From the NCBI GenBank assembly GCA_016124905.1, contig WGMV01000018.1, positions 1-49,991 of the forward strand: a stretch of DNA of 49,991 nt, written 5' to 3'. Under the pieces are notes generated by a model. That model saw nothing but the letters and a program-made list of their open reading frames with translations. It was not told the origin of the DNA and made no database searches. Below are positions 13,815-17,460 of this stretch, piece by piece. The DNA is from a bacterium. GTDB lineage: Bacteria; Pseudomonadota; Alphaproteobacteria; Rickettsiales; RI-342. The translations under genes were made by a program, and so were the position numbers. Position 1 is the stretch's first letter, and every line of letters begins with the position of its first letter.

Positions 13815-14648
13815 GTGAACATGATGCGCAACAAAAACCGCCCGATGAATTTCCAGCGCGGCAATAACAACGGCGGCGGCAAACGCCCCTTCAACAACAA
13901 TAACCGCAACCGTCACCGCCGTTTCAACAATAACGGCCAGCGCCAGGGCGCCCGCACGCACGAGGGCAAAACCAAGATGCAGGCCCTGCAGATGCGCGAG
14001 AAATTCCAGAACCTCGCGCGCGACGCGCAAATGGTGGGGGATCGGGTGCAGATGGAATATTATCTGCAATATGCCGACCACTATACCCGCATCGTGGATT
14101 TCTTTGAAGCAGAGGAACGCGAAGCGGCTGCCGCCTTCAGCGATGAATTTGAAGGCGAGGGCGCGGAAGGCGAAGGCGATGCCGAAAATGATGCCCAGAC
14201 CGAGGGCGAGGATGCGGCCGAAGGTGAGCCGGTCCGTCAGGGGCATCAGCAGCGCCAGCAAAACCGTCAGCACGGCCAGCACCAGCCGCGCCACCAGCGC
14301 CAGCATAGCCAGGCTCAGGGCGAGGGTGATGACGAGAATGGCGGCCAGCAGCCTGCTGCGGCGCCTTCCATGGGCGTTCCGGCCATGGGGCTTCCGCTCC
14401 CGCCTGCGTTCCCTTCCTTCCGCGCGCCGGAAACCCTGGGCGGTGACGCCGCCGCAGGCGAGGGCGACGACAGTGGCCCCGCTGAGGAAGAGCAGCCCCG
14501 CCAGCCACGCGGCCGTGGCCTTTATGGCCGCCGCCGCGAGGGTGCCGAGGGCGATCAGCCTCGCCAGCCCCGCGCGCCGCGCCAGCCGCGGGCCGAAACG
14601 CCAGCGGGCGACGATGCCGGTCAGCCTGGAGCTTCTTCCGACGAATAA
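13815..14648 (+). CDS. DUF4167-family protein (alphaproteobacterial, Asn/Arg-rich N-terminus)
   Basis: A 277-residue protein. A basic Asn/Arg-rich N-terminus (NFQRGNNNGGGKRPFNNNN) leads into the conserved core of the family, with MQALQMREKFQNLARDAQM and QMEYYLQYADHYTRIVDFFE (about residues 55-100). A long acidic then Gln/Pro/Arg-rich disordered tail follows. The family is nearly confined to alphaproteobacteria and often lies beside prmC; its job is unknown, and the basic N-terminus suggests nucleic-acid binding. The start is GTG at 13815 with GAAAGG 8 bases upstream; the longer frame overlapping prmC is out of phase with that gene and is rejected. A strong terminator follows. Confidence 0.88.
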   Translation: MNMMRNKNRPMNFQRGNNNGGGKRPFNNNNRNRHRRFNNNGQRQGARTHEGKTKMQALQMREKFQNLARDAQMVGDRVQMEYYLQYADHYTRIVDFFEAEEREAAAAFSDEFEGEGAEGEGDAENDAQTEGEDAAEGEPVRQGHQQRQQNRQHGQHQPRHQRQHSQAQGEGDDENGGQQPAAAPSMGVPAMGLPLPPAFPSFRAPETLGGDAAAGEGDDSGPAEEEQPRQPRGRGLYGRRREGAEGDQPRQPRAPRQPRAETPAGDDAGQPGASSDE

Positions 14649-14666
14649 GGCCCGCGAGCGCACTCA

Positions 14667-14702
14667 AAGCGGGAGAGAGGGAAACCTCTCTCCCGCTTTT
14701 TT
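14667..14702 (+). terminator. Rho-independent terminator after the hisS-prfA-prmC-DUF4167 group
   Basis: A 14-bp perfect stem AAGCGGGAGAGAGG / CCTCTCTCCCGCTT (14667-14680 with 14685-14698) closes on a GAAA tetraloop and runs into TTTTTTG. It begins 18 bases after the DUF4167 stop codon. Confidence 0.93.
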
Positions 14703-14890
14703 GTTTTTCGTGCTAAAAGCCACCCCGCTTGGCCCAAAAAACAGCCAAAAATAAGCACTTAGGACCGGCTGTGGATGGGGATGGCATCCCATTGAAGGGA
14801 CTAGATATTTCCAGTGAATAATTTTTTTTTCGTTAAGGTGAAAAAATACTGGCGTGAGGCACAATTTTTTATTACTTAAGCCGACCATTT

Positions 14891-15049
14891 ACGTTATATA
14901 ACGTTTAGAGGAAGGCGGGTTGCCCAACAACTCGTTGAACTCAGTGGGAAAACTTTAGAGAGACACGGAGACACTCTTGATGGACCAACCGCTTTTGCAC
15001 TCCTAGCCACTTAGGGAAGGCAGAAGCACCACCGCAAGGAATCGGTGAA
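14891..15049 (+). promoter_or_regulatory. Structured 5' leader of the polyamine operon (candidate speF-type cis element)
   Basis: The gene-free stretch 14703-15049 starts AT-rich and holds a perfect 14-bp palindrome ACGTTATATAACGT at 14891-14904 that could include the -10 box (TATAAC). The RNA that follows can fold. CCCA/TGGG encloses CAAC-AACTC-GTTG around 14922-14948, and CACCG/CGGTG (15030-15034 with 15043-15047) makes a hairpin whose loop holds the AAGGA ribosome-binding site of the decarboxylase. A short leader frame lies at 14980-15006. Rfam describes a speF motif upstream of alphaproteobacterial ornithine decarboxylase genes. Membership is inferred from position and structure, not checked. 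Confidence 0.6.
14980..15006 (+). CDS. Possible 8-residue leader peptide upstream of ornithine decarboxylase
   Basis: ATG GAC CAA CCG CTT TTG CAC TCC TAG encodes MDQPLLHS. GGAG at 14967-14970 lies 9 bases before the ATG, a normal distance. The frame ends 43 bases before the decarboxylase start, inside the structured leader. Leader peptides are known to sense ornithine or polyamines upstream of speF in enterobacteria; here the idea rests only on the frame, its ribosome-binding site and its position. Short frames of this size also occur by chance. Confidence 0.35.
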   Translation: MDQPLLHS

Positions 15050-16387
15050 ATGAAACATGATGTTGCAATGCCCGCTGTGGCAACGCCTACTACTACTAAC
15101 ATCGCTAACCAGGCCGTTCCATCGGAGCAATTAGCACATCAGACCTACCCGAACGTGAAAGCCATGGTGAAAGCCATTCAGCCTTCCTTTCCGGTCCACA
15201 TTTTCCGTCCCCATGCGGTGAAGCGCGTTACCAGCTGGTTTATCCAAACATTCCCCGGTAAAACCCTTTACGCTGTGAAGACCAACCCGACGCCGCACGC
15301 GCTTGCCGTGCTGTATCAGGCGGGCGTGCGCCATTTCGATGTCGCCTCCCTGCCGGAGATCCAGCAGGTGCATTCCATGTTCCCGGATGCGACCATGTAT
15401 TACATGCACCCGGTGAAAAGCCGCGAGGCGATCAGCGAGGCCTATCACCAATATGGCGTGCGTGATTTCTCGCTCGATTCCTTCGAGGAACTGCACAAAA
15501 TCCTGGAAATGACCACCACCGGTGAAGTCGATGGCACCGCGCCCGATCTGGGCCTGCACATCCGTCTGGCGCTGCCCAAAGGCTCCGCCGCGCATGATCT
15601 GTCGGGCAAATTCGGCGCCAACATGGATGAAGCCGAGGAGCTGCTGCGCCTGGCCCGCAAGGTGGGCAAGCGCGTGGGCATCTGTTTCCACGTCGGCTCC
15701 CAGTGCATGGACCCCACCGCCTACGACACGGCCATCGCCAAGGCTGCCGAACTGGTGAAGAAAAGCGGCATCAAGCTGGATGTGCTGGATGTCGGTGGCG
15801 GTTTCCCGTCCATCTATCCGGGCCTCACCCCGCCGGATCTGAGCGTCTACATCAACACCATCCGTGCCTCCGTGCATGCCCATTTCGGTGCCAATAAAAA
15901 AGGAATGGGGCAGCCGGAACTCTGGTGCGAGCCAGGCCGCGCGCTGGTCGCTGAAGGCGGCTCCGTCGTGGTGCGTGTGGAACTGCGTAAGAAAAACGCG
16001 CTCTACATTAACGACGGCACCTACGGCACGCTGTTTGATGCAGGCTCTCCCGGCATGGTGTTCCCCACGCGCCTGGTGCGCGAAGGGCACATTGATAACG
16101 AAGAAGGCGGCAGCGGCCATGCAGGCATGACCGGTTACAAATTCTTCGGCCCGACCTGCGACAGCCTGGACACGATGAACGGCCCCTTCGCCCTTCCGGA
16201 CGATGTCGTGGAAGGCGACTGGATCGAAATCGGCCAGCTCGGCGCCTATGGCTCCACGCTGCAAACCCGCTTTAATGGCTTTTATTCCGACCACACCGTG
16301 GTGCTGGAAGACGAGCCCGTGATGTCGCTCAACACCGGGCGCTTCACTCAACAAGAAAAAACCGTACTGACCAAGGAAGTTGCCTGA
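15050..16387 (+). CDS. Ornithine decarboxylase, eukaryotic-type (fold III) PLP enzyme
   Basis: A 445-residue alanine-racemase-fold decarboxylase that converts ornithine to putrescine. The PLP lysine is in LYAVKTNPTPHALA (Lys near residue 76). The glycine-rich phosphate loop is LDVGGGFPSIYPG (about 248-260), HVGSQCMD precedes it, and the active-site Cys/Asp loop is FGPTCDSLDT (about 365-374). It is somewhat longer than typical alphaproteobacterial homologues because of a 30-40 residue polar N-terminus. A related lysine/ornithine decarboxylase specificity cannot be excluded. The ATG is preceded by AAGGA 9 bases upstream. The stop overlaps the next start (TGATG), so it is co-translated with the deoxyhypusine-synthase homologue. 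Confidence 0.9.
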   Translation: MKHDVAMPAVATPTTTNIANQAVPSEQLAHQTYPNVKAMVKAIQPSFPVHIFRPHAVKRVTSWFIQTFPGKTLYAVKTNPTPHALAVLYQAGVRHFDVASLPEIQQVHSMFPDATMYYMHPVKSREAISEAYHQYGVRDFSLDSFEELHKILEMTTTGEVDGTAPDLGLHIRLALPKGSAAHDLSGKFGANMDEAEELLRLARKVGKRVGICFHVGSQCMDPTAYDTAIAKAAELVKKSGIKLDVLDVGGGFPSIYPGLTPPDLSVYINTIRASVHAHFGANKKGMGQPELWCEPGRALVAEGGSVVVRVELRKKNALYINDGTYGTLFDAGSPGMVFPTRLVREGHIDNEEGGSGHAGMTGYKFFGPTCDSLDTMNGPFALPDDVVEGDWIEIGQLGAYGSTLQTRFNGFYSDHTVVLEDEPVMSLNTGRFTQQEKTVLTKEVA

Positions 16388-17460
16388 TGACTGCTGTACA
16401 AAAAAAGAACGCCCCCCAATCAAGTAAGGTTGGCCCGGAGGCAAAACGCAAAAGCGAGCTGCTCGCTAACGTGGTGGAGCATATCGACATCAAAAGCTTT
16501 GATGCGCGCCCCATCATCGACAGCTATCGCAAAATGTCCTTCACCTCGCGTGATCTGGCCCGTGCTGCCGACATCTATAACATGATGCTGGAAGAAAAGG
16601 ATTGCACCATCTTCCTGTCCGTGGCGGGTTCCACCTCCGCCGGCGGCTGCATGGACCTTTATGCCGACCTGATCAAACACAACATGATCGACGGCATCAT
16701 CGCCACCGGTGCCACCATTGTGGACATGGACTTCTTCGAAGGCCTGGGCTTCAAGCATTATCAAGGCTCCCCGGCCATTGACGACCGCGAACTGCGTGAC
16801 CTCTACATCGACCGTATTTATGATACCTACATCGATGAGGAAGACCTGCAGGCCTGCGATGGCACGATCCTCGAAATCGCCGACAGCCTCGAGCCGCGCC
16901 CCTATTCCTCGCGCGAATTCATCCGCGAAATGGGCAAATACCTGACGCAGAAGGGCAAGAAGGAAAACTCCCTCGTCAAGCTCGCCTATGAGTATGACGT
17001 GCCCATCTTCTGCCCTGCATTCACCGATTCCAGCGCCGGTTTCGGCCTGGTGATGCACCAGGTGAAGAACCCCAAAAGCCACATGTCCATTGATTCCATC
17101 AAGGACTTTCGCGAGCTGACCGAGCTGAAGATCAAGTCCGGCGAATCCGGCCTGCTGATGATCGGCGGCGGCGTGCCCAAAAACTTCGTGCAGGACACGG
17201 TGGTGTGCGCCGAGCTGCTGGGCCATGATTCCCCCATGCACAAATACGCCATCCAGATCACGGTGGCCGACGTGCGCGACGGTGCCTGCAGCTCCTCCAC
17301 GCTGAAGGAAGCCTGCTCCTGGGGCAAGGTGGACGTGACCTATGAACAGATGGTCTATGCCGAAGCCACCAGCGTGCTGCCGCTGCTCGCCAGCGATGCC
17401 TACCATCGCGGCGCCTGGAAAAAGCGCCCGCAGCGCAAGCTCGCCAAGCTGCTGGTCTAA
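16387..17460 (+). CDS. Deoxyhypusine synthase-family protein (probable homospermidine/spermidine-dependent enzyme)
   Basis: A 357-residue NAD-dependent DHS-fold protein. Signature stretches are IFLSVAGSTSAGGCMDLYAD, DGIIATGATIVDMDFFEGLG and VPIFCPAFTDSSAGFGL. The catalytic lysine motif is in KEACSWGKVDVTYEQ (Lys near residue 313). In eukaryotes and archaea DHS modifies eIF5A; bacteria lack eIF5A. Bacterial homologues next to ornithine decarboxylase are thought to transfer the aminobutyl group to small amines, giving homospermidine. That role is inferred from context. It starts with ATG on the last base of the decarboxylase stop. Confidence 0.85.
   Translation: MTAVQKKNAPQSSKVGPEAKRKSELLANVVEHIDIKSFDARPIIDSYRKMSFTSRDLARAADIYNMMLEEKDCTIFLSVAGSTSAGGCMDLYADLIKHNMIDGIIATGATIVDMDFFEGLGFKHYQGSPAIDDRELRDLYIDRIYDTYIDEEDLQACDGTILEIADSLEPRPYSSREFIREMGKYLTQKGKKENSLVKLAYEYDVPIFCPAFTDSSAGFGLVMHQVKNPKSHMSIDSIKDFRELTELKIKSGESGLLMIGGGVPKNFVQDTVVCAELLGHDSPMHKYAIQITVADVRDGACSSSTLKEACSWGKVDVTYEQMVYAEATSVLPLLASDAYHRGAWKKRPQRKLAKLLV

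Follow-up and report, generated by a model that had tools for sequence, protein, structure and literature searches.

Leader of a polyamine operon in a Rickettsiales-type bacterium, with short open reading frames, and conserved predicted leader peptides before the orthologous decarboxylase gene in relatives

Control of an ornithine decarboxylase gene by a peptide encoded in its leader has been described for Salmonella, where orf34 exerts Rho-dependent, ornithine-induced control of speF (PMC6386406). In E. coli, the corresponding SpeFL peptide has 34 residues, is annotated in MG1655 and is separated from speF by a gap of 257 nt. A second point of reference is TnaC of E. coli, whose Pro24 occupies the P site while the stop codon stands in the A site (PMC8429421). 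In Alphaproteobacteria, the speF element (Rfam RF00518) is presented as an RNA that was reported to bind neither ornithine nor putrescine nor spermidine, and the passages located in the original report mention no leader peptide for it (Corbino et al. 2005, PMC1273637). A search of the open literature returned no report of a leader peptide for an alphaproteobacterial ornithine decarboxylase, and neither the Caulobacter nor the Sinorhizobium ribosome-profiling papers mention ornithine in their main text. The supposition of the first-pass annotation that such a peptide would be new thus agrees with the open papers searched, and its appeal to leader-peptide control of enterobacterial speF is borne out by the E. 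coli and Salmonella precedent.

The window, by which we mean the whole stretch of DNA analysed (49,991 nucleotides, to which all coordinates refer), contains a two-gene polyamine operon of a Rickettsiales-type bacterium, and positions from about 14880 to 15049 are its structured 5' leader (Table 1). The first gene encodes a decarboxylase whose nearest solved structures are lysine/ornithine decarboxylases; we use "ODC" as a short label for it, the substrate being putative and based on sequence. Its start codon is supported by the N-terminus MKHDVAMP, which is like the MKN-T-EPPGR start of relatives. For the second gene, the best NCBIfam model, above its cut-off, is 1,9-bis(guanidino)-5-aza-nonane synthase, which makes homospermidine uncertain as the product. 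The order of decarboxylase followed by a deoxyhypusine-synthase-family gene recurs in many relatives. Upstream, an intrinsic terminator sets the operon apart from a DUF4167 gene (PF13763 match), and the stretch between this terminator and the ODC leader is AT-rich. The operon would have a promoter of its own, for which the layout of related leaders points to a candidate -10 box; a promoter scan of the window leader found no sigma-70 consensus site.

Table 1. Positions of the terminator, leader elements and genes in the window, with one example of a leader peptide from a relative.
Feature	Position	Strand	Remarks
Intrinsic terminator of upstream DUF4167 gene	14666..14699	+	15-bp stem, then T run
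Candidate -10 box TATTAC	14870..14875	+	by analogy with f23 leader promoter layout only
14-bp palindrome ACGTTATATAACGT, 5' hairpin of leader	14891..14904	+	
Hairpin GGCGGGUUG/CAACUCGUU, covers TTG of frame 1	14914..14936	+	predicted by folding
Short frame 1, TTG start, (M)PNNSLNSVGKL	14920..14958	+	AGAGGAAGG at 14907-14915
Short frame 2, MDQPLLHS, ATG GAC CAA CCG CTT TTG CAC TCC TAG	14980..15006	+	Shine-Dalgarno (SD) GGAG at 14967-14970
Strong hairpin GCUUUUGC...GCAGAAGC, overlaps end and stop of frame 2	14991..15027	+	
Hairpin CACCG-CAAGGAAT-CGGTG	15030..15047	+	decarboxylase SD AAGGA (15036-15040) in loop
PLP decarboxylase, ornithine/lysine/arginine type ("ODC")	15050..16387	+	PF02784 and PF00278
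Deoxyhypusine-synthase-family gene, second in operon	16387..17460	+	PF01916; NF002699
f23 leader peptide, sequence example			MILFMKEQTFSRRFVGFLINEP

The elements on which the first-pass annotation had built its case (the palindrome, the GGAG, the MDQPLLHS frame and the CACCG/CGGTG hairpin) are all present at the positions it gave for them, and the RNA is foldable as proposed: the predicted folding energy of 14885-15060 is -49.3 kcal/mol (z = -2.4), a stability reached by 5 of 200 dinucleotide shuffles, and that of 14985-15030 is -16.3 kcal/mol. Frame 1, a second frame equipped with a Shine-Dalgarno sequence, had gone unmentioned. A TTG at 14977, one codon 5' of the ATG of frame 2, may extend that peptide to MMDQPLLHS. 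We also observed an open frame of 44 codons, lacking any ATG, GTG or TTG start, that runs through the leader on the forward strand (14880-15014, ...RRVAQQLVELSGKTLERHGDTLDGPTAFALLAT); its similarity to other leader peptides was not significant.

The proposal that this leader belongs to the speF RNA motif did not hold. The Rfam covariance-model search that had been suggested gave no match for the window at the gathering score; RF00518 was absent among the permissive E-value matches for 14640-15100, and nothing rose above the cut-off across the window's whole genome. The element itself was present in 3 of 115 genomes of a class-wide sample and, within one order, in 7 of 10. At nine RF00518 loci the adjoining decarboxylase shares about 30% identity with that of the window, whose own subfamily, at 49-60% identity, is found in its order and in Rhodospirillales-type and Pelagibacterales genomes. 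The missing match and the different decarboxylase subfamily together rule out the speF motif. A peptide encoded within RF00518 was also considered and dropped, frames at the nine loci having been judged by eye with nothing convincing seen.

Relatives of the window leader were sought among genomes of the order, of which 93 of 344 contain ODC. The nearest decarboxylase among the genomes searched is 62% identical to that of the window, the only other examined genome of the window's family has no ODC ortholog at this level, and the window protein searched alone against genome contigs found no close relatives. Local blastn of the window leader against all fetched leaders returned a single 13-base match (E = 0.88), and none of the relatives' leaders compared could be aligned with it. 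A large blastp clustering of leader frames yielded mostly frames overlapping neighbouring genes.

Two families of related leaders, f23 and f16, gave a clearer picture. All 14 f23 genomes with a readable leader (L041, L040, L039, L015, L014, L011, L038, L043, L044, L048, L049, L010, L012 and L042) carry a frame whose start codon, GTG or ATG, follows TTAACAACnnATnnGnnTTTT or a sequence very similar to it. This frame is 22 codons long, or 20 in two of the genomes, its end lies 29-36 nt 5' of ODC, and the peptide consensus is MIxxxKxQxFxKRFVGFLxxEP-stop. Across codons 10-22, the C-terminal part, pN/pS is 0.44, compared with 0.90 +/- 0.22 in column shuffles, none of 300 being as low; the two other reading frames give about 1.2 and 1.5. 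All three stop codons (TAA, TAG and TGA) and all four proline codons occur, and Glu-Pro-stop is kept in 13 of the 14 leaders. Conservation extends to a hairpin that spans the last ten codons, with some paired changes and 90% of cells paired; its covariation score is 0.449 against 0.347 in shuffles, a kind of count that the kinship of the sequences inflates. Both the RNA pairing and the peptide thus appear to be constrained. Codon-level conservation of this kind firmly indicates a translated leader peptide before ODC in f23, a stronger case than that for the window frame.

The three f16 genomes (L013, L017 and L018) have shorter predicted peptides of 8-10 codons, MFFRAKIP, MFFRSHIP or MFIFFRCKIP, each ending in IP before the stop. 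All three leaders match R1, the covariance model built from the f23 leaders, with E values of 1e-6 to 6e-5, and by this measure the two leaders are homologous. With three sequences, the evidence is weaker than for f23, and a conserved leader peptide is probably present in f16 as well. The motif TTAACAACnnATnGGnnTTTTRTG before the frame occurs in 2 of 385 genomes of the class, both f23/f16. As far as we have found, a leader peptide of the f23/f16 kind has no earlier report. The broader suggestion of the first-pass annotation, that ribosomes translate a leader peptide ahead of an alphaproteobacterial ODC, therefore stands as a general idea, in relatives of the same order, with peptide and leader sequences that differ from those of the window; its interpretation as a whole is partly supported.

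Could the window leader be a diverged member of this family? The orthologous decarboxylase lies downstream in both, the f23 leaders likewise open with a small 5' hairpin (of a different sequence from the window palindrome), the distance from that hairpin to frame 1 (TTG at 14920) is similar, and the second window frame, like the frame of f23, has a hairpin across its end. Against this, the window genome has no match to TTAACAACnnATnGGnnTTTTRTG, the window has no TTAACAAC motif, and R1 finds no match in it up to E = 1. The f23/f16 frames (for example in L015, L040, L041 and L018) have 20-22 or 8-10 codons, an EP or IP end and a preceding TTAACAACnnATnnGnnTTTT, whereas frame 2 ends in Ser rather than Pro and lies 43 nt from the gene, as opposed to 29-36 nt in f23/f16. 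Peptide similarity is not significant either. These comparisons place the window leader outside the f23/f16 family, and descent from it, already disfavoured, is highly improbable.

Further conserved leaders precede ODC elsewhere. In four Rhodospirillales-type genomes (L125, L085, L126 and L067), a conserved frame, WDGHDLVVLSRFDV..., lies 5' of ODC and has the C-terminus R-(H/N)-I-A-W-D-G-H-D-L-V-V-x-x-R-x-D-V-(L/I)-R-(D/V)-stop; it is probably another leader peptide. L168, L169 and L170 share a leader block, GATCGACCCAGGTGCG...GTAAGCAAGGAGATCCGCGGTTCGTAAAC, upstream of ODC, for which Rfam gave no match. A block ...CAACGACGTAACGCGTCCTTTTTGG... is conserved far upstream of ODC in L066, L194, L199 and others (Azospirillum-like, Rhodospirillales-type) and in some genomes adjoins a frame ending HVPMALRGYATT-stop; it may be RNA or peptide.

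A different arrangement is seen in family f29 (L021, L022, L026, L045, L047, L135, L136, L144 and L146), where a conserved RNA occupies the last 150 nt 5' of ODC. In it, GUCAUAAAUCC can pair with GG(A/G)UUUAUGAC directly 5' of the ODC start codon; the members scanned have no Rfam match, and the element looks like a ribosome-binding-site switch. A MACRDP frame considered here as a leader peptide was dropped, its conservation fitting RNA pairing with the ribosome-binding site. The occurrence of such an unannotated RNA in the same order raises the possibility that the window leader, too, is a structured, peptide-free element that hides or exposes the ribosome-binding site. Its stable hairpins at 14914-14936, 14991-15027 and 15030-15047 would suit control by RNA alone; no Rfam family, however, matches the window, none of the leaders compared could be aligned with it to show covariation, and the decarboxylase Shine-Dalgarno sequence stays in an open loop. 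We consider this explanation unlikely.

How much weight the window frames can bear was judged from shuffled sequences, counting frames of at least 4 codons with GGAG, GAGG or AGGA at a suitable distance. Such a frame with an ATG start arises in 5.4% of dinucleotide-shuffled leaders; when any start codon is allowed the share rises to 27%, and 4.6% of shuffles contain at least two. A hairpin with AAGGA in its loop arises in 2.1% of shuffled flanks. Frames so equipped are not enriched in the 87 ODC leaders of the order (5 seen, 3.2 expected from shuffles) or in 113 leaders from other orders of the class (6 seen, 5.9 expected). The features of the window are thus real and its short frame is weakly above chance, and, given these rates and the lack of enrichment, the frame is not strong evidence alone. 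There is a substantial possibility, somewhat short of even, that this is an ordinary 5' untranslated leader in which short frames occur by chance and the Shine-Dalgarno hairpin merely tunes translation. The 27% chance rate, the absence of enrichment over 200 ODC leaders, the lack of conservation support for the window frame and the decarboxylase Shine-Dalgarno sequence, predicted to be unpaired in all states, agree with it. The low frequency in shuffles of both the ATG frame and the loop hairpin, the stability of the leader relative to shuffles and the translated leader peptides predicted before the same gene in relatives argue the other way.

Folding with a model ribosome on either window frame predicted no change at the decarboxylase Shine-Dalgarno sequence (for frame 2, unpaired probability 0.98 free and 0.97 occupied), and the same procedure on 17 f23/f16 leaders gave no consistent change. 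A simple model in which the ribosome-binding site is unmasked was therefore dropped, and we propose no particular switch with confidence.

We suggest, tentatively and with a probability somewhat below even, close to that of the ordinary untranslated leader, that the window leader would most likely work as a lineage-specific translated leader that sets the level of the decarboxylase. Ribosomes would enter the short frame at 14980-15006, possibly after or instead of that at 14920-14958, and would melt the hairpin at 14991-15027 that overlaps the frame end; their pausing or finishing on the frame would then set the amount of decarboxylase made. This reading is favoured because the Shine-Dalgarno sequence and the other features are present and the leader folds better than shuffles, because the hairpin overlaps the frame end as the conserved one does in f23, and because the orthologous gene is preceded by a leader peptide in 14 genomes of f23 and three of f16, one f16 peptide (MFFRAKIP) also having 8 codons. 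The further conserved Rhodospirillales-type frame and the speF precedent of E. coli and Salmonella (PMC6386406) count in the same direction. It is disfavoured because the window frame has none of the features of the supported relatives, frames with a Shine-Dalgarno sequence are unenriched, folding at that of the decarboxylase does not change and no significant peptide similarity was found. On balance, the chance that the frame is translated appears roughly even and that it is regulatory somewhat less, in our judgement rather than by calculation; a putative ligand would be ornithine, lysine or a polyamine. A broader and more doubtful possibility is that alphaproteobacterial ODC genes repeatedly gained leader peptides, such as the f23/f16 Pro-stop and Rhodospirillales WDGHDLVV types, and that MDQPLLHS is one more of them, specific to its lineage, which would sense ornithine or a polyamine while being translated.

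In comparison with the described systems, the window leader shares with SpeFL and orf34 (PMC6386406) a short frame within an ODC leader, and differs from their 34-residue, Rho-dependent, ornithine-sensing arrangement with its 257-nt gap; the sequences are dissimilar. MDQPLLHS has no similarity to SpeFL, 8 of 300 shuffles score at least as well against SpeFL as frame 1 does, which is not significant given the many comparisons, and nothing significant was found between the window peptides and SpeFL, the f23 peptides or the Rhodospirillales peptide. Like the conserved RF00518 leader, it precedes an ODC gene in the same class, but the two match in neither sequence nor structure and a decarboxylase of another subfamily lies downstream. 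The window frame lacks the Pro-stop of TnaC (PMC8429421), whose gene and ligand also differ. The f23/f16 peptides do place a proline before the stop, which makes them natural candidates for termination arrest; by this precedent they would arrest the ribosome at Pro-stop in response to a ligand. As ligand-sensing ODC leader peptides are known from enterobacteria, a codon-conserved Glu-Pro-stop peptide before a Rickettsiales decarboxylase would, if true, represent a separate origin of such control.
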